Part shown: positions 1-7,317 of the stretch, piece after piece
How positions within the stretch are numbered: position 1 is the first letter of the stretch
Layout of the letters: every line of letters begins with the position of its first letter
From: an uncultured Phocaeicola sp.
GTDB lineage: Bacteria; Bacteroidota; Bacteroidia; Bacteroidales; Bacteroidaceae
NCBI GenBank assembly: GCA_947626525.1
Contig: CANQSM010000005.1
Span: forward strand, 1 to 64,000
Length of the DNA stretch: 64,000 nucleotides
Direction: 5' to 3'
Notes under the pieces: generated by a model
What the model was told of the DNA's origin: nothing
What the model saw: only the letters and a program-made list of their open reading frames with translations
Databases searched by the model: none
Translations under genes and position numbers: made by a program

Positions 1-2045
1 GTTTTCTGGCATTTATAGGAGTCTCGCAAGATTCTGCAGCCGTCATCTGCAGCCTTTAACTGAATATCCCTAATTACTGTTATACCATCTTCGATTTCTA
101 ACCTGCTAAACGAGGCGTATTGGCCTTGTAAAGCTATCGCCACTTTATCGTCGTATTCTACAGGGGTGAACGTCAGTATCACTTGTTTCGTCTTGGCTAT
201 TTCGCAAAGTGTATTGATAAAATTCAGTCGGTTGTCCTGATCTACTCGGCCAATAGGTGTGTCGATAAATAATAGAGAGTCGTGCATTGATACCTTCTGC
301 AAGGCAAGTGTAAACGATAGGGCTAGCAGAGCTCGTTCCGCAGCACTACAAGAACCAAGTGTCTGCGAACCATATTTGTCTAGCAGACGAAAAGTGTAAT
401 CCTCCAGGATTTCTACCTTAGAGAAAGCATCTTTCTTCCATAACAGTCGAGTGAATGTGTCAAATGTCTCTTGTTCCATTTCCCGACGGCTCTCTTCTAG
501 CAAGTCAAGACGTGTTTCTTTTAAAATGTTTCGGCATTTCTTACAATAGTCTGCCTGCTTATTTATTTTTTCGAGTTGCTGATTCTTTTCGATGAGCGAT
601 TTCAGTAGTTTAGATTGATTATATAGCTGATTGTCGAGTACTTTTTTATGTTCCTCTTCAACACCTTTCTTAGCAACTATATCGTCACGTTTCTGGCGAT
701 ATTCTTTCTTATTCTCAATAGCCTTAGTTATAGCTTCCGTATTGGGGATATTCATCAAATAGATATTCAGTTGCTTCTCCTCTTCAAGGTATTCAGTATA
801 TTGCTTGCGAAGTGCTTTCTCTTCCTCCATAAGAGTGGTACGACGTTCCTGATAATGTGACAATTTATCAATATACTGACGTAATACCACAACCGATTTA
901 TTCAACAAAGCAGATGTCTCTGATGACACTTCAAGTTCTTTTCTCAGATCTTTAATAAAACTATAAGAATGGGCACTTAAATCTTGGTCACATATCAGGC
1001 AATGTTTATGTTCTTCAATCGCCTTAAGCAGAAATTTATCTATGCGAGGTGGCAACTTACCGTGCTTGTCTTGTTCCTTTATATATGTATATAGATTTTT
1101 GATGGCAGGATATAGGGCAAAATACTGAACATATTCACGGACAAACGCCATAAGTTCTGCTTTCTTCTTTGCAATATCACTTTTCAATGAGTCTATCAAG
1201 TCATCAATTTCTTTTAACCTTGCTGTTTTCTCTGAAACATGAATATGCCCGCTAATTATATTATCAAGTATTGCAATCTCATCATCGCAATTATGGATTT
1301 GCCTTGTTAGGGTATTGATAGAATCTACGGTAGCATCAATGGCCTCCTGTGTTTTATCCAACTCTTTCTGTGCAACAGAAATATCCTTAACAGAAGAATT
1401 AGCTATCTGAGGATTTAATACTCCAATCAAATAATTGTTAAAAGCAGCTTCTGCTTTCTCAATTATTTTTGCCTGTGTAAGTTCTTCTATGCCGTTCTTT
1501 ATATTCTCAAACTGCCCCGCTTTGAAATAGCTTTCAAGATGTTCTCCGTCGAAGAATATATATTCATGTATTTCCTCTGGGACATTCTTCTTCACAAATG
1601 ACAATGTTTCTTCTTCTGCATCTATTGAATTCCATTCTCCATCAACTAAATGCATGATCGAGAAATCTGTATTTACAAGAATAACAGCTTCTTTTGTTAC
1701 ATTGAACTTACCTACCCTCTGGAATAGGATTTTCTCAGAAGCATCATCCGATGAGAAAAGGATTCGTACGGCTGCATCACCAATCATACTTCCACCTTCT
1801 GGAAGATGCATACGCAGTTCATGAACCTTTTGGTTGTTTAATATGGCAAGTGCAGTATTTTTATCTCCCAAATGCATTTCCTTGTCGTAAAGGCACCAAG
1901 TGATTGCATTGAGCACATTCGTCTTACCTACGCCATTGTTGGCAAAGATAATATGCAAGTCATTTTCTCCATAGGAATGAGGGAACTTGAATAACAGATT
2001 GCGATACTGACGAAAATTCTGAATTTCAATACTTTCTATTCTCAT
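1..2045 (-). CDS. DndD/Rad50-like SMC-family ATPase, partial (C-terminus beyond window)
   Basis: About 681 codons are visible and the frame stays open to the window edge. ATG at 2045 begins MRIESIEIQNFRQY, the usual start of RecF/SMC/DndD ATPases. A Walker A motif (NNGVGKT) lies near residues 36-42. Long Glu/Lys-rich coiled-coil stretches flank a CLIC motif near residue 350, like the zinc hook of Rad50. The ABC signature (SCSAAERALLALS) is near 567 and Walker B with the DndD-like IDTPIGRVDQDNR near 594. Such proteins hydrolyse ATP on DNA and serve repair or, as DndD, phosphorothioation and defence. It is the last visible gene of an operon, 4 bp after the 49-residue ORF. Family level is fairly sure; the exact subfamily and role are inferred from neighbours. 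Confidence 0.85.
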   Translation of the reverse strand, partial: MRIESIEIQNFRQYRNLLFKFPHSYGENDLHIIFANNGVGKTNVLNAITWCLYDKEMHLGDKNTALAILNNQKVHELRMHLPEGGSMIGDAAVRILFSSDDASEKILFQRVGKFNVTKEAVILVNTDFSIMHLVDGEWNSIDAEEETLSFVKKNVPEEIHEYIFFDGEHLESYFKAGQFENIKNGIEELTQAKIIEKAEAAFNNYLIGVLNPQIANSSVKDISVAQKELDKTQEAIDATVDSINTLTRQIHNCDDEIAILDNIISGHIHVSEKTARLKEIDDLIDSLKSDIAKKKAELMAFVREYVQYFALYPAIKNLYTYIKEQDKHGKLPPRIDKFLLKAIEEHKHCLICDQDLSAHSYSFIKDLRKELEVSSETSALLNKSVVVLRQYIDKLSHYQERRTTLMEEEKALRKQYTEYLEEEKQLNIYLMNIPNTEAITKAIENKKEYRQKRDDIVAKKGVEEEHKKVLDNQLYNQSKLLKSLIEKNQQLEKINKQADYCKKCRNILKETRLDLLEESRREMEQETFDTFTRLLWKKDAFSKVEILEDYTFRLLDKYGSQTLGSCSAAERALLALSFTLALQKVSMHDSLLFIDTPIGRVDQDNRLNFINTLCEIAKTKQVILTFTPVEYDDKVAIALQGQYASFSRLEIEDGITVIRDIQLKAADDGCRILRDSYKCQK

Positions 2046-2049
2046 AGCA

Positions 2050-2199
2050 TTATATAGATTTCATTATTTTGTCAATAATTCGTTTACCTTGACGACCTTC
2101 TTCTATACCAGAAAGTACGCTCTTGATGTTCTTCTGCATAGCGATATCAGACTTCGTCTTATCTGCTATCTTCACTAGGATCTTTTTGTTAATGGCCAT
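2050..2199 (-). CDS. small 49-residue basic protein linking helicase and SMC ATPase
   Basis: A 49-codon ORF, begins MAINKKILVKIADKTKSD and ends DKIMKSI, lies exactly between the helicase stop (2201) and the ATPase start (2045), with gaps of 1 and 4 bp. This tight packing is the main evidence that it is translated. The product is short, strongly basic and probably helical, with no signal peptide or membrane segment. I do not recognise the family. Its place beside a DndD-like ATPase recalls the small DndE protein of dnd operons, but it is less than half DndE length and I see no convincing similarity. It may be an assembly or DNA-binding accessory subunit. Confidence 0.6.
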   Translation of the reverse strand: MAINKKILVKIADKTKSDIAMQKNIKSVLSGIEEGRQGKRIIDKIMKSI

Positions 2200-2200
2200 A

Positions 2201-4321
2201 TTAATCTAATGAATTTATTATTGTTAACGCATCTATTGAATTGATTGCATTTGCCGCAATCTCTTTGAGACGTATTTGTTCTTTCGCTCTTATTTTACGT
2301 TCAAATTCAACATAATCATCGCCCACAGAATGTATCGTATCAACGCAAATATCGTATAGTTCTGCCGAATGTTTGTTAGGACTCTGGCGGATAATACGAC
2401 CTATTCGCTGAACATATTCACGTGGATTCGTACTGGATGCCATCAATATTCCCACATCTGCCGTTGGAATGTCTATGCCCTCATCCATACACTTGATAGC
2501 AACAATTACCTGATAGTCTCTGGATTTGAACTTTGATATGATATGCTCCCGTTCAGACTTATTTCCAAAGCGTTTCTCTACTTTGGTTCCTTCTTTCTCG
2601 GTCAACTTATGAAAAATGATTTCCCTTGACGCAAGGATATTAAGCACCTCCATTATTTGTTGGGGAGAGACAAATATGATTAAATTTTCTATTCTACCTT
2701 TTGCTTGTAACTCATCAAGAATTATCTCTAATTGATTATATTTTGCGGAGGCATTCCTGATGATGTTTGCCCTTTTCTCAATCAGTCGCTCTAATGTTAG
2801 AGCAGCATCTGGGTTGTTATCTTTCAGGTTCCACAATTTGCTAATCTTCGCTGAAATATTCTTGTATTCTTCTGTTTCATCTTCATCAAGCGAGACCTTG
2901 GAAATGAGATAATGGTAATTGACAAGGAAATGTTTACCTGTCATCGGGTTGTATTCCGTTAATGCATCTTTGATGGTAAACTCGAAATTCGCATTTCTAT
3001 AGAAAGCTACAAGTTTGGCAGTACCTACATCGTCAAACCAACGGCTTGGAGTAGCGCTAAGTCCGATTCTGTATTTGTAACAAGGTAACAATGCATGTTG
3101 GAATTTATGCGCTCCCAGCCAATGAGTCTCATCACCTACGAACAAAACATCTGTACCAATTTGAAGATTCTGCTGAATAGCGTTCGTGAACTTATCAGAT
3201 GAAGCGGTATTGTGTGTTGTATATAAGCAGATATGATCAGCCATACCCGTCCCATTCTTTAACAGTAATTTAACCAGCAATCTATCCCATTGAGGCACAG
3301 AACCATCAATAATAACACTTTCATCAAAAGTAAGTTTCTGAGCATCCACTTCATCTTTCCATTGTTTAGAAAGCGTATTTTGCGGAGTGGTTATAATTGT
3401 AATAAGCCGTTTCCTTGTTTGATTCAGATATTTAATACCAGCAATGGCTGTTCTGGTCTTTCCAGTACCAGTTGCCATCTCAAAGAGCAGTTTATAATTA
3501 TTCGCCTTCCATTTATTTAATGCATCTGCCTGATAGAAAAATAATTTCTTGTCGCTCCTAAAGTCAAATTCCCTTAAACGGATAGTACGATATTTCTTTA
3601 AAGAGATACTCTCCTTATCGAAGTCAGAGGAATAGTGGATAATATTTGACTTTATGGCTGACGGGAGATTATAGACTTTTACGTTCTTTCGCTCGCCATT
3701 CCATATCTCATTGAATCGTTTTCTATCTCTCTCAAAATACTCACGTGCATCCGTCCACTCCTTGAACACCTTAAATTCTTCATCATTATTGACCCATGCT
3801 GAAGCGGTTTCGTTAATAGAACCACTAAACGACATTTCATTTCCTTCTGTATCCTTTAGTATTCCGACCTTCTGATGGAACAGTCCTTTCTCGGATATAG
3901 TTTCATTGTCACAGATGCTACCATCATCATTAAAGACAATAGCTAATTTCATTTCAAGTAAGCCTGATGCGAGCATCCAACCAAGTGCCTTTACGTGGTT
4001 TCTCTCAAATTCATTTTCAAGATTATCCAAATCAATTCCAAAATCGGATATTGTAAGAGAGGAATCGTCTGCGACTATCTTCTTGACAATATCAATATCT
4101 TCTCCATTCAGCCTTGGACTCGTAATAAGTCTCATCCTACCACCATTAACAATAAAGTCGGCTATACCACGAGCAGCCACAGCTAAGGATGTGGATGAAA
4201 AGAATCCTGTAATCCTGTCATATCGCATCGCAGCACCAAGGACAGGCACATAATAATCTTCTATTATATCATCTACGCCAGATTCATAACATGGTTTAAT
4301 ATGTAAATCCCTAAAGCTCAT
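2201..4321 (-). CDS. phospholipase D-domain / SF2 helicase fusion (706 aa)
   Basis: The N-terminal part is a PLD-like nuclease module: GFFSSTSLAVAARG near residues 39-52, FHQK with H149 and K151, and GSIN at 167-170. A superfamily 2 helicase core follows: GTGKT at 285-289, a DETH box near 395, GLSATP, motif V (DEGIDIP) and motif VI (YVQRIGRIIR) near 640. The combination suggests an ATP-driven translocase that positions a cut. Only one HxK half-site is evident, so activity may need a dimer. The start overlaps the radical SAM gene by 11 bp, indicating translational coupling. PLD-helicase fusions are common in restriction and defence islands; the substrate here is unknown. Confidence 0.85.
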   Translation of the reverse strand: MSFRDLHIKPCYESGVDDIIEDYYVPVLGAAMRYDRITGFFSSTSLAVAARGIADFIVNGGRMRLITSPRLNGEDIDIVKKIVADDSSLTISDFGIDLDNLENEFERNHVKALGWMLASGLLEMKLAIVFNDDGSICDNETISEKGLFHQKVGILKDTEGNEMSFSGSINETASAWVNNDEEFKVFKEWTDAREYFERDRKRFNEIWNGERKNVKVYNLPSAIKSNIIHYSSDFDKESISLKKYRTIRLREFDFRSDKKLFFYQADALNKWKANNYKLLFEMATGTGKTRTAIAGIKYLNQTRKRLITIITTPQNTLSKQWKDEVDAQKLTFDESVIIDGSVPQWDRLLVKLLLKNGTGMADHICLYTTHNTASSDKFTNAIQQNLQIGTDVLFVGDETHWLGAHKFQHALLPCYKYRIGLSATPSRWFDDVGTAKLVAFYRNANFEFTIKDALTEYNPMTGKHFLVNYHYLISKVSLDEDETEEYKNISAKISKLWNLKDNNPDAALTLERLIEKRANIIRNASAKYNQLEIILDELQAKGRIENLIIFVSPQQIMEVLNILASREIIFHKLTEKEGTKVEKRFGNKSEREHIISKFKSRDYQVIVAIKCMDEGIDIPTADVGILMASSTNPREYVQRIGRIIRQSPNKHSAELYDICVDTIHSVGDDYVEFERKIRAKEQIRLKEIAANAINSIDALTIINSLD

Positions 4322-6425
4322 AGTCTATAGATTCCTTTATTGTATGAATGATAGTATTAACATTAGAACGTCTTCTTACCTGAGTGGTATGAGACAATAT
4401 GCTAAGTATTTCATCACGAACTTTATCCGTGGCTCCAGCCATAAAATAGTTCTGAATGAAAGGTATATACAAACATAATTTTGGAAGAATGTTCCTTCTA
4501 TCTGCTTCACTCAGTTTGACAAAGCAACTACCAAAAGCATTAGCATTTCCATGACACTTTTCAAATCTGCAAAGTCCCAACTGTGCAGCTGTTTTCATGT
4601 GGTTCTCACCATATTTCTTATCGGCAACATCCTTACGTTTTTCGGCTCGTAGCATATAACCCATCTTTGAGTAATCAACATCTTTTAACCCACAATTTTG
4701 AAGCACATACGGTACAGTATAATATACATCTCTGAAATCACTAAACTGCGATATATCCTTCTTGTCGATTTTCGCTGGCTCAAAGCCTTCTTTAATAATT
4801 TTCAATATCTCGCTACATTTGTGTTTTTTTAGAACCGCTAACAGCAATTCACTTTTCCTTTCATCCTCCAAAAGACTGACATCTTTATGTGTATAGAATG
4901 CCTTCAATAAGGCTTGCTCGTATACACTGTTGCCGATTAAGTTATCCCAAAACTCGCTGTTAAGGGTAAATTTTACTCCTCCCAGTGTTATCTCTGTATC
5001 ACGATACCATAAGTTAGAATCTATCATCTGCTTAAACGACATATTAAAAAAAGATAAAAACAAATCTTTATGTTCCTTGAATTGATTCAGGAAATCTACA
5101 ACAGTTTTCAGAGGGGTGGAAATTCCAATTTCATCATAATATCCGTTATTATAGTCTTCTAAGAACTCCTCATAAGTTTTAAGTTTTGACGGTTCACGGC
5201 CAAGAGTATGTTCTTCCCAAAAAGTCTGATTTTTATAACAGAACTGCCAGAACGACAAGTTACGGAAAAAACCAGGTTGGTTACACCATCTAGCTATCTG
5301 CACATAAATGTTAGATAGAGGTGCTTTCTTGTAATCCTCATGGCGCATGATATACGGAAGACATCCATATCTCATCAGCACACAGATACGCATAAAGATT
5401 TCAGCCACATCCAATTGAAACTTCTTGTAGTCTTTCATAGACTGTCGGAAACCACAAAATAAGTAGAACTTGGTTTCTTTCTTGGGACAATAGTACTTCC
5501 ATATTTTAAGTGCTTTTACAATGACCTTGCGGTCTGACCAATTGTCAAAAGCAAAGATGAAATCTCCATGATAATTGGCGCTGGCCAATTTCCTTGCTAT
5601 ATCTTCTCCACGTTTATGTTGAGCTATCAATCGTTCGTCAAGTCCCTGTCTAAATTGAAAAGGACGTTTCGTTGCTATCAATTCGTCGAGCAAAGACTCC
5701 CAGTTGGGTGATGCTAAAAAATTATCATCCCAGAGATAAATATATGGACGCTTCAGTTTCCCAGTTTTCTCGTCAATCTCGTTATCAAGAAAATCACTGA
5801 GTTTAGAATAAGGCATAACCTTGCGTTCCAACTTGTTAACGCAAAATGGGCAGCGACGGAAGCAACCTCGTGTTAGGAAACCAATGGAGTATTCTTTGTA
5901 ATCCTTGTAATATACATCCGATGCCTTCACGTTCTCCATTGCACTGATGAAATCATCATACAGATGATAGTCAGGCATCTGTATCTGCATGTCTATTCCG
6001 TAATTACCCGACTTATTCTTCAAAGTATTCAAGAAAGCATCCTTCTCCAACTTGAGCATATCTTCTTCACGTTTCTCTGCAAAGCCTTCCTCTTCAGAAA
6101 GATTTGCGTAAGTGCCTGTTCCACCCATGCGAACACGCTTTGATAATTTTTTATCATTGAGGAGGGTAGTTAGTACAAGTGGAGGATTATCAATGGTGAA
6201 AGTAAAGACACAAGAAACATAGAAATAGTTATACTTCTGTAGCTCCTCAAAGTTACTTTCATTTGTAATTAATTCATAGCAATTGGCATCATCGGTATAG
6301 CCCCGCACATAGCCATTATCTCTAAAATATCCAGCGATCTTTAATAGCGCAAGATTAGGGTGCCGCGTTCCATTACAAAGCAGGTCGGCATCCACAAGCC
6401 CTATCTTAATCTTTCGTCTCGTCAT
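4311..6425 (-). CDS. radical SAM protein with N-terminal B12-binding-like region (704 aa)
   Basis: The radical SAM cluster motif is clear: C188, C192 and C195 in GCFRRCPFC. Residues 5-110 (KIGLVDADLL ... VRMGGTGTYA) resemble the Rossmann-like cobalamin-binding domain found before many radical SAM domains, but I see no DxHxxG cobalamin motif. The region after the cluster (LWDDNFLASPNWESLLDEL, FRQGLDERLI) fits the partial TIM barrel of B12-type radical SAM proteins. A long C-terminal extension of about 350 residues has no recognised domain and contains several cysteines near 635-655. First gene of the operon, 30 bp downstream of a good promoter. Companions that act on nucleic acid suggest a DNA- or RNA-modifying enzyme, which is inference. 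Confidence 0.85.
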   Translation of the reverse strand: MTRRKIKIGLVDADLLCNGTRHPNLALLKIAGYFRDNGYVRGYTDDANCYELITNESNFEELQKYNYFYVSCVFTFTIDNPPLVLTTLLNDKKLSKRVRMGGTGTYANLSEEEGFAEKREEDMLKLEKDAFLNTLKNKSGNYGIDMQIQMPDYHLYDDFISAMENVKASDVYYKDYKEYSIGFLTRGCFRRCPFCVNKLERKVMPYSKLSDFLDNEIDEKTGKLKRPYIYLWDDNFLASPNWESLLDELIATKRPFQFRQGLDERLIAQHKRGEDIARKLASANYHGDFIFAFDNWSDRKVIVKALKIWKYYCPKKETKFYLFCGFRQSMKDYKKFQLDVAEIFMRICVLMRYGCLPYIMRHEDYKKAPLSNIYVQIARWCNQPGFFRNLSFWQFCYKNQTFWEEHTLGREPSKLKTYEEFLEDYNNGYYDEIGISTPLKTVVDFLNQFKEHKDLFLSFFNMSFKQMIDSNLWYRDTEITLGGVKFTLNSEFWDNLIGNSVYEQALLKAFYTHKDVSLLEDERKSELLLAVLKKHKCSEILKIIKEGFEPAKIDKKDISQFSDFRDVYYTVPYVLQNCGLKDVDYSKMGYMLRAEKRKDVADKKYGENHMKTAAQLGLCRFEKCHGNANAFGSCFVKLSEADRRNILPKLCLYIPFIQNYFMAGATDKVRDEILSILSHTTQVRRRSNVNTIIHTIKESIDYEL

Positions 6426-6454
6426 ATTTCTTGGTAAGTCATGTTATGCAGCGT

Positions 6455-6485
6455 CAAAAATAACATTGCACATGTCTATATCAAA
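6455..6485 (-). promoter_or_regulatory. Bacteroidetes-type promoter of the radical SAM operon
   Basis: Reading the minus strand, a -33 TTTG (6485-6482) is followed after 19 bp by a -7 TATTTTTG (6462-6455), an exact match to TTTG-N19-TAnnTTTG. The start of transcription would fall near 6448, giving a leader of about 20 nt before the ATG at 6425. It shows that the cassette has its own promoter. Confidence 0.75.
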
Positions 6486-6521
6486 TAAACAAAATTGTAG
6501 ATTCTTATCTACGAACATCAA

Positions 6522-6605
6522 CTAATCTCTATCCTTCTCTGCCAACCACTTGTTAATCAAGTTTCGTTCTACAAGGGCTACTTTGATTCTATTTAATTTT
6601 GCCAT
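6522..6605 (-). pseudogene. truncated XRE-like HTH regulator (27 codons)
   Basis: The 27-codon frame begins MAKLNRIKVALVERNLINKW and continues LAEKDRD before TAG. This matches the first 25 or so residues of small Bacteroides helix-turn-helix regulators, whose sequence normally goes on through the recognition helix (typically ...WLAEQLGKDPATVSKW). Here it stops exactly where that helix should begin. The following bases do not continue the family in any frame that I can follow. It is best read as the 5' relic of a regulator that once stood before the operon. A functional micropeptide is possible but unlikely, since no complete DNA-binding fold remains. Confidence 0.55.
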
Positions 6606-6677
6606 TATATTGTTATTTCTTCTTATTATTCTATGTTTTCGTCTATTGTATGCAAAATAAATGAAATAATGTGAGAA

Positions 6678-6716
6678 TAGCCCACAAACTTTCAAAAAAA
6701 AGAAAGTTATGGGCTA
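6678..6716. terminator. stem-loop in AT-rich intergenic DNA
   Basis: TAGCCCAcaAACTTTC (6678-6693) pairs with GAAAGTTaTGGGCTA (6702-6716) around an A-rich loop. The stem is about 14 bp with one small bulge. Weak T-rich sequence follows on the plus side. It could terminate transcripts or be a relic of a mobile element. No intact gene lies immediately beside it. Confidence 0.4.
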
Positions 6717-6786
6717 TATATTCGCGATTCTGTCATTTATTTGAGGTTTCATAAATTTTCTTTTTTCTCTTCTCTCTCACCCTTTC

Positions 6787-7130
6787 CTATCCCAGCATCT
6801 TTTTAGCTAACACACTTTCTCCAGCAGGAAAATAGAGAGGAAAAACTTTATATAGGAAAGTTACTAGTCTTATCAGAACTTTCATGAGCCAAAATTCCCA
6901 TATTCCTAAGGTTCTTGATATTTTTTCTATAGCACGTTTAGTTACGCCAATCTTGTTAGCAGCTGTGATTGTGTGAACACATCCGCAATAACGGGGTTAC
7001 GGCGCATGGACGGCACTTTGTATATGTCTCGGTCTTGGATTTGTGTACCGTCAAGTATCGCACTGGGTGATACCAATCCTTCGAAGATGGCACGGTCGGA
7101 ATAGTCAGGAAGGTTGCAGTACCTGCCAAC
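6787..7130 (-). pseudogene. remnant of AlbA_2/RecG-like ATP-binding transcriptional regulator
   Basis: On the minus strand an open segment (7130-6945) reads DYSDRAIFEGLVSPS, then DGTQIQDRDIYKVPS and MRRNPVIADVF, which is typical of the C-terminal half of AlbA_2/divergent-AAA (RecG-like) Bacteroides proteins. It ends at a stop at 6942. In another frame, 6960-6787 reads ITAANKIGVTKRAIEKIS, the winged-helix tail of such proteins, then drifts to a stop. The usual block between FEGLV and DGT, with the HRDY motif, and the MERRGSG block are missing. The locus therefore carries at least one frameshift and two deletions. Confidence 0.6.
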
Positions 7131-7183
7131 CTATATGAATCGCCATGGTTATGGAGGTGTTTTGTCTGTTTCTTGTATCTCCG

Positions 7184-7280
7184 TTCACCGTCCAGCGAAC
7201 GCTGGACGGTCCATGCAGATAGGTGCATCGGCTTTCGCAGCTATCTAACTTCACCGTCCAGCGGTCCGCTGGACGGTGAA
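7184..7280. repeat. pair of related long palindromes (core CCGTCCAGCG)
   Basis: TTCACCGTCCAGCG occurs at 7184-7197 and again at 7250-7263. Each is followed by its inverse: CGCTGGACGGT at 7200-7210 after a 2-base centre, and CGCTGGACGGTGAA at 7267-7280 after a 3-base centre. The second palindrome has perfect 14-bp arms. The first has perfect 11-bp arms. The copies are 66 bp apart in a stretch with no intact gene. They resemble REP-type or element-end repeats, and their GC content exceeds that of the AT-rich surroundings. Function unknown. Confidence 0.75.
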
Positions 7281-7317
7281 CGGTGCTTACTGTTATGACT
7301 ATTGAACTTTGTACTAT

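Follow-up and report, generated by a model that had tools for sequence, protein, structure and literature searches.

Restriction systems are known to mark self DNA by base methylation, by phosphorothioation, or by one of a few hypermodifications. PbeABCD was first described as an antiviral module (PMC6459918) and then re-described as the CxC ABC-ATPase-DndE system (PMC10853773), and its marking genes are DndCDEA, Ssp-like genes, or methyltransferases. In plasmid Pbe cassettes, pbeA is preceded either by dndCDEA or by an Ssp-like set whose last gene encodes a PAPS-reductase. Solitary PbeAC sets are common (320 of 553), and because most PbeAC sets lack dndCD, DndCDEA is not obligatory for Pbe (PMC6459918). 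Neither paper mentions a radical SAM enzyme as a component, and in the open-access literature that we searched we found no report of such an enzyme as part of DISARM, Dnd, or Pbe. Here we describe a Pbe cassette that has a radical SAM enzyme instead of these marking genes. Judging from comparative gene content, we consider it likely (roughly 70%) that this cassette joins a radical SAM DNA-modifying enzyme to a PbeABCD restriction module, and that the enzyme is an interchangeable marker of self DNA.

The cassette lies at one end of the stretch of DNA that we analyzed, 64,000 nucleotides of a contig from an uncultured Phocaeicola sp. (CANQSM010000005.1; hereafter the window). Four packed open reading frames fill positions 3-6425 on the minus strand, with an 11-bp overlap followed by gaps of 1 and 4 bp, an arrangement that agrees with a preliminary description of this DNA. 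The radical SAM gene comes first (4311-6425; 704 aa), followed on the same strand by pbeA (2201-4321; 706 aa), a pbeB-like gene encoding a small basic protein (2050-2199; 49 aa), and pbeC (3-2045; 681 aa, open at the contig end). The CX3CX2C, HKD/GSxN, helicase, and IDTPIGRVDQDNR motifs were all found. The preliminary description had also proposed that the four genes form an undescribed system. PADLOC, though, assigns the 706-aa protein to PbeA (5e-202 over residues 2-697) and the ATPase, over its full length, to PbeC (1.9e-86). PbeA has an N-terminal HKD (PLD) nuclease domain with H-Q-K...GSIN and an SF2 helicase part with MATGTGKT and DETH; the helicase matches TIGR04095, “DNA phosphorothioation system restriction enzyme”, below the NCBIfam cut-off. 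PbeC is a DndD-related coiled-coil ABC ATPase that carries the IDTPIGRVDQDNR motif and a cysteine hook of the form CxxC (CLIC, residues 349-352). The 49-aa protein had no match in family searches; it sits between pbeA and pbeC, the site expected of PbeB, and was recognized by sequence in 12 of 17 relatives, with a similar-sized ORF at that position in some further relatives. The order PbeA, PbeB, PbeC is that of the described system (PMC6459918, PMC10853773). By homology and position, three of the four genes belong to the known PbeABCD system, so the statement that no described system has this set is wrong for those three. The radical SAM gene stands outside the named system.

The small protein had also been considered as a counterpart of DndE. 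We rejected this, as the counterpart is the gene of the PbeD family (~153 aa) that follows pbeC in 16 relatives. A weak match to TIGR04062 (dnd_assoc_4), the model by which PbeD is named in the dnd plasmid taken as a control, was obtained for one member of this family. In the Phocaeicola genome itself, the best DndC match reached 23.9 bits against a cut-off of 290, so no coupled DndCDEA set was found there; a profile search of the same genome with TIGR03184 (DndE) gave no match, in a search where no control responded either.

The described system has pbeD, whereas in the window this gene is cut off by an insertion element. What lies beyond position 1 had been posed as a question; in relatives pbeD follows pbeC, and here positions 1-72 are one end of a multicopy insertion element that sits 6 nt short of where pbeC normally stops, and the contig breaks there. 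The repeat is outside the normal pbeC, whose reading frame continues into it. In a 95%-identical relative, Bacteroides ndongoniae (L041), PbeC has its normal 659 aa, ends in ...ITVIE, and is directly followed by a 153-aa gene. The ~72-bp element end (...CTGAATATCCCTA) occurs at 40 listed places in the genome, almost all of them contig ends, facing outward: a highly multiplied insertion element fragments the assembly of this strain. A plasmid search with the contig-end repeat gave no match. We did not find pbeD in the window's assembly in a search that detected it in a control genome; small contigs may be missing, so loss of pbeD is not proven, yet the operon is interrupted. Given the insertion element between pbeC and pbeD and the failure to find pbeD, the cassette is probably impaired in this strain.

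The window and B. ndongoniae share positions 72-6853 at 95% DNA identity, with different flanks, and the GC content of this segment is 36-39%, versus 40-50% in most neighboring DNA. As judged from its boundaries with B. ndongoniae, the segment is a transferred unit. Upstream of the first gene, the consensus promoter of the preliminary description was recovered as a perfect match to the Bacteroidota type (TTTG-N19-TATTTTTG; 6455-6485, minus strand), with TTTG-N19-TANNTTTG ~30 bp 5' of the first start codon. Roughly one match of this kind per 64 kb would arise by chance, so this one supports a promoter without proving it. Farther upstream is the remnant of an XRE-type regulator gene (6534-6605, minus strand), kept in broken form by both the window and B. 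ndongoniae. Intact copies stand 5' of the radical SAM gene in some relatives, and XRE-type regulators or their traces are found upstream in 19 loci, belonging to three of the cassette types described below (Pbe, DndFGH, and DISARM). They are reminiscent of the controller proteins of restriction-modification systems.

We scanned 84,980 GTDB species genomes, which yielded 120 relatives of the radical SAM protein; the best 80 were kept, and their neighbors were clustered and then named. Among these best 80 of 120, 70 belong to four kinds of restriction-type cassette and 10 lie elsewhere: 17 in a Pbe type that encodes PbeA and PbeC, mostly with PbeB and PbeD; 12 in a type with DndF-DndG-DndH; 28 in a DISARM-like type that usually encodes a NERD-helicase, a ~790-aa protein, DrmA, and DrmB; and 13 in a type with a ParB-like protein, a ~138-aa protein, an SNF2 helicase, and a second ParB-like protein. 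The grouping is not due to chance: the trio of radical SAM gene, pbeA, and pbeC recurs in 17 other genomes, mostly with the same order and spacing, and the recurrence in unrelated genomes that had been proposed as a check is borne out. The radical SAM gene is the first gene in nearly every set (in L098 it stands last), and gaps typically run from -20 to +60 bp. Among the carriers are Bacteroidota, Bacillota, Actinomycetota, and Verrucomicrobiota, and all four types are represented by isolates as well as MAGs (e.g. L041, L058, L077, L084, L092, L098, and L110). Carrier isolates include Paraprevotella clara YIT 11840 with a cassette of the DndFGH type, Dysgonomonas sp. 520 with one of the DISARM type, and B. 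ndongoniae with one of the Pbe type.

Each of the other types can be set beside its closest described system. Compared with DndBCDE-DndFGH, the relatives head cassettes in which DptF and DptG score above curated cut-offs and the third gene is DndH, but none of those 12 genomes has DndC over its cut-off; the window itself is without DndFGH. Compared with DISARM, the relatives head DrmA-DrmB cassettes, but DrmMI and DrmMII were not seen, and upstream there are instead the radical SAM gene, the NERD-helicase, and the ~790-aa protein, which matches no family. Several of these DISARM-like loci are cut by contig ends. The cassette of radical SAM, NERD-helicase, ~790-aa protein, DrmA, and DrmB, with no methyltransferase seen, recurs, for example in L035 (MT837356.1), L064, and L084, and L035, filed as “Bacteriophage sp.”, looks like a bacterial cassette. 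The ParB-like/SNF2 arrangement accompanies the radical SAM gene in L054, L061, L087, L098, L102, L114, and L120; it has no close PADLOC system and is possibly an undescribed restriction module. For sets of this kind without the radical SAM gene, no partner was found in 395 genomes of the phylum, a search that had no control, and a plasmid search gave one weak match.

We then asked which marking enzymes accompany the radical SAM gene. Methyltransferases were sought with limited sequence seeds and an NPPY-type motif rather than full HMM libraries, and by these means no homolog was found inside the cassettes; matches in two loci, L061 and L110, both lie outside the cassette, and none was seen beyond DrmB in 12 extended loci. 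Among 28 carriers of the radical SAM gene whose cassettes are of the Pbe or DndFGH type, one had DndC over its cut-off, in a search that detected the plasmid control. DndH was encoded by three of 395 sampled genomes from the same class; none of the three has the radical SAM gene, and all of them encode DndC within ~10 kb. DndFGH types therefore have DndC in 0 of 12 cases with the radical SAM gene versus 3 of 3 without it (Fisher p ~0.002, our own calculation). This comparative evidence supports the view that the radical SAM gene occupies the place of Dnd, Ssp, or methyltransferase genes and replaces them. The preliminary description had suggested that a radical SAM enzyme could replace the modifying enzyme; as regards position this stands, while DNA marking is what the comparison suggests.

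The relationship between enzyme and module appears to be fluid. On the tree of the radical SAM proteins, there are at least 22 switches from one of the four named cassette types to another. Enzymes that are 91.6% identical are paired with a DndFGH module in L076 and with a DISARM-like module in L111, and further cross-module pairs share 79-88% identity. In several such pairs, DNA similarity covers ~250 bp of upstream sequence plus the radical SAM gene and ends at its stop codon; in others it ends near that codon. These patterns support exchange of the radical SAM enzyme among modules as a unit. Keeping the function of the enzyme while swapping the restriction module is the behavior expected of a self-marking enzyme. 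The same patterns also bear on the idea of a passenger gene: the radical SAM gene would be a co-transcribed but functionally separate neighbor in a defense island, next to a Pbe set that is solitary here. The frequency of solitary PbeAC sets noted above would agree with this idea. Against it are the near-zero spacing, the association of 70 of the best 80 of 120 relatives with four modules, the exchanges that have happened repeatedly and break at the stop codon, and the mutual exclusion with DndC in DndFGH types, and of the alternatives that we weighed it is the one to which we give the least credence.

The radical SAM protein itself gave few matches in sequence searches. Pfam returned only Radical_SAM, weakly (9.8e-05, under the gathering score), a PDB sequence search gave no informative match, and PADLOC matched the protein to no defense model; it does match the phage family phrog_9298 (1.8e-33). 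The three cysteines of the CX3CX2C iron-sulfur/SAM motif (C188, C192, and C195; 5841-5864, minus strand) are identical in 84 of 84 aligned family members, and C355 and C381 are also nearly invariant. In a structure model (pLDDT 92.5), residues ~1-470 form a Rossmann domain and a radical SAM core/barrel, and residues ~475-704 form a winged-helix domain. The closest solved folds are MgmA (Z 14.6), AprD4, MiaB, RimO, OxsB, and TsrM, with Z scores of 13-15 to known radical SAM members. On this model, the protein belongs to the B12-type/methylthiotransferase class of radical SAM folds. Like the window protein, these enzymes have a Rossmann domain, a radical SAM barrel, and CX3CX2C, but they share only ~13% identity with it and have other partners, and the window protein adds the winged-helix domain. 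The Rossmann domain is correctly placed for a B12-dependent enzyme, and cobalamin is a candidate ligand. Because the substrates of the fold relatives are tRNA, proteins, and small molecules, the fold does not by itself imply a DNA substrate.

MiaB and RimO are among the closest folds (Z 13), and so the enzyme might instead modify tRNA or another RNA in the manner of MiaB, with the restriction genes guarding the modification or the RNA. We consider this very unlikely. The partner modules are DNA-restriction systems, and Radical_SAM being the sole Pfam match, a TRAM domain was not detected. Moreover, MiaB and RimO have three conserved N-terminal cysteines for a second [4Fe-4S] cluster, whereas in the alignment of the window family no N-terminal cysteine is common to more than 26 of 82 members.

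The winged-helix domain matches the N-terminal DNA-recognition part of FokI with a middling score (Z 7.3 over 145 residues), and is a possible counterpart of the MTaX1 domain of PMC10853773. It is absent from most DndFGH- and DISARM-type relatives, and a search for it in plasmids found none. In several relatives, these C-terminal ~230 residues are encoded as a separate gene. In a spirochaete MAG (L115, 2070-9322), radical SAM and winged-helix genes are oriented opposite to PbeA/PbeC-like genes.

Relatives of the enzyme are also found in viral contigs, where a single-protein search found nothing and an alignment query recovered them. A methyltransferase homolog lies within 6 kb of the radical SAM gene in 28 of 50 non-redundant viral contigs, a figure that may be inflated toward one type of phage because the methyltransferase seeds came partly from such a phage; the two genes are directly adjacent in 15. 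Several of these contigs have the order methyltransferase, radical SAM, C5 methyltransferase. In the phage operons of L036 (8013-9137), L168, L184, and L186, the methyltransferase, radical SAM, and C5-methyltransferase genes overlap or are adjacent. The adjacency of radical SAM and methyltransferase genes in phages fits an anti-restriction DNA modification.

Viperins are radical SAM defense enzymes. By analogy, and given its presence in defense operons, the radical SAM protein could be an effector that, like prokaryotic viperins, makes a toxic or chain-terminating nucleotide once the restriction module senses phage. Several of the results above make this unlikely: no PADLOC defense model matches the protein, its fold is a Rossmann domain plus barrel as in MgmA and MiaB, its partner sets already include nuclease, helicase, or translocase genes, it replaces DndC or methyltransferase genes rather than accompanying them, and its phage copies are often beside DNA methyltransferases.

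We therefore return to the reading of the enzyme as a marker of self DNA. Because the radical SAM gene heads four unrelated restriction cassettes in place of the usual marking enzymes, it probably writes a new “self” mark. We infer from its genomic associations that its substrate is DNA and that the modification is used in self/non-self discrimination and protection; by analogy with its fold relatives, the chemistry would be methylation or methylthiolation. Under this model, the radical SAM protein would chemically mark host DNA, and its winged-helix domain would contribute to the choice of sites. PbeC and PbeD would scan DNA, PbeB would regulate, and PbeA, with its helicase and HKD nuclease, would block replication of unmarked DNA or cut it, these roles of the Pbe proteins being taken from the literature.

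With somewhat less confidence, we favor a broader proposal, in which the radical SAM enzyme family writes a new DNA modification by which at least four unrelated machineries (Pbe, DndFGH, DISARM-like, and ParB/SNF2) recognize self, and phages use the same enzyme for anti-restriction. Since the marks read by PbeABCD, DndFGH, and DISARM are said to differ, being either phosphorothioate or methyl, a single mark serving all of them would be surprising. If the proposal is correct, the association of the same enzyme with Dnd-, Pbe-, and DISARM-type modules would mean that readers of “phosphorothioate” and “methylation” are more general sensors of modification, and it would account for some of the “solitary” PbeABCD and DndFGH sets without dndC. 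A radical SAM marking enzyme would also be new chemistry in the DNA epigenome of anaerobic gut bacteria.

Outside the transferred segment, the window also contains a cluster of palindromes at positions 7176-7283, built on CACCGTCCAGCG/CGCTGGACGGTG and including a perfect 15-nt hairpin at 7250-7280, which is possibly REP-like.
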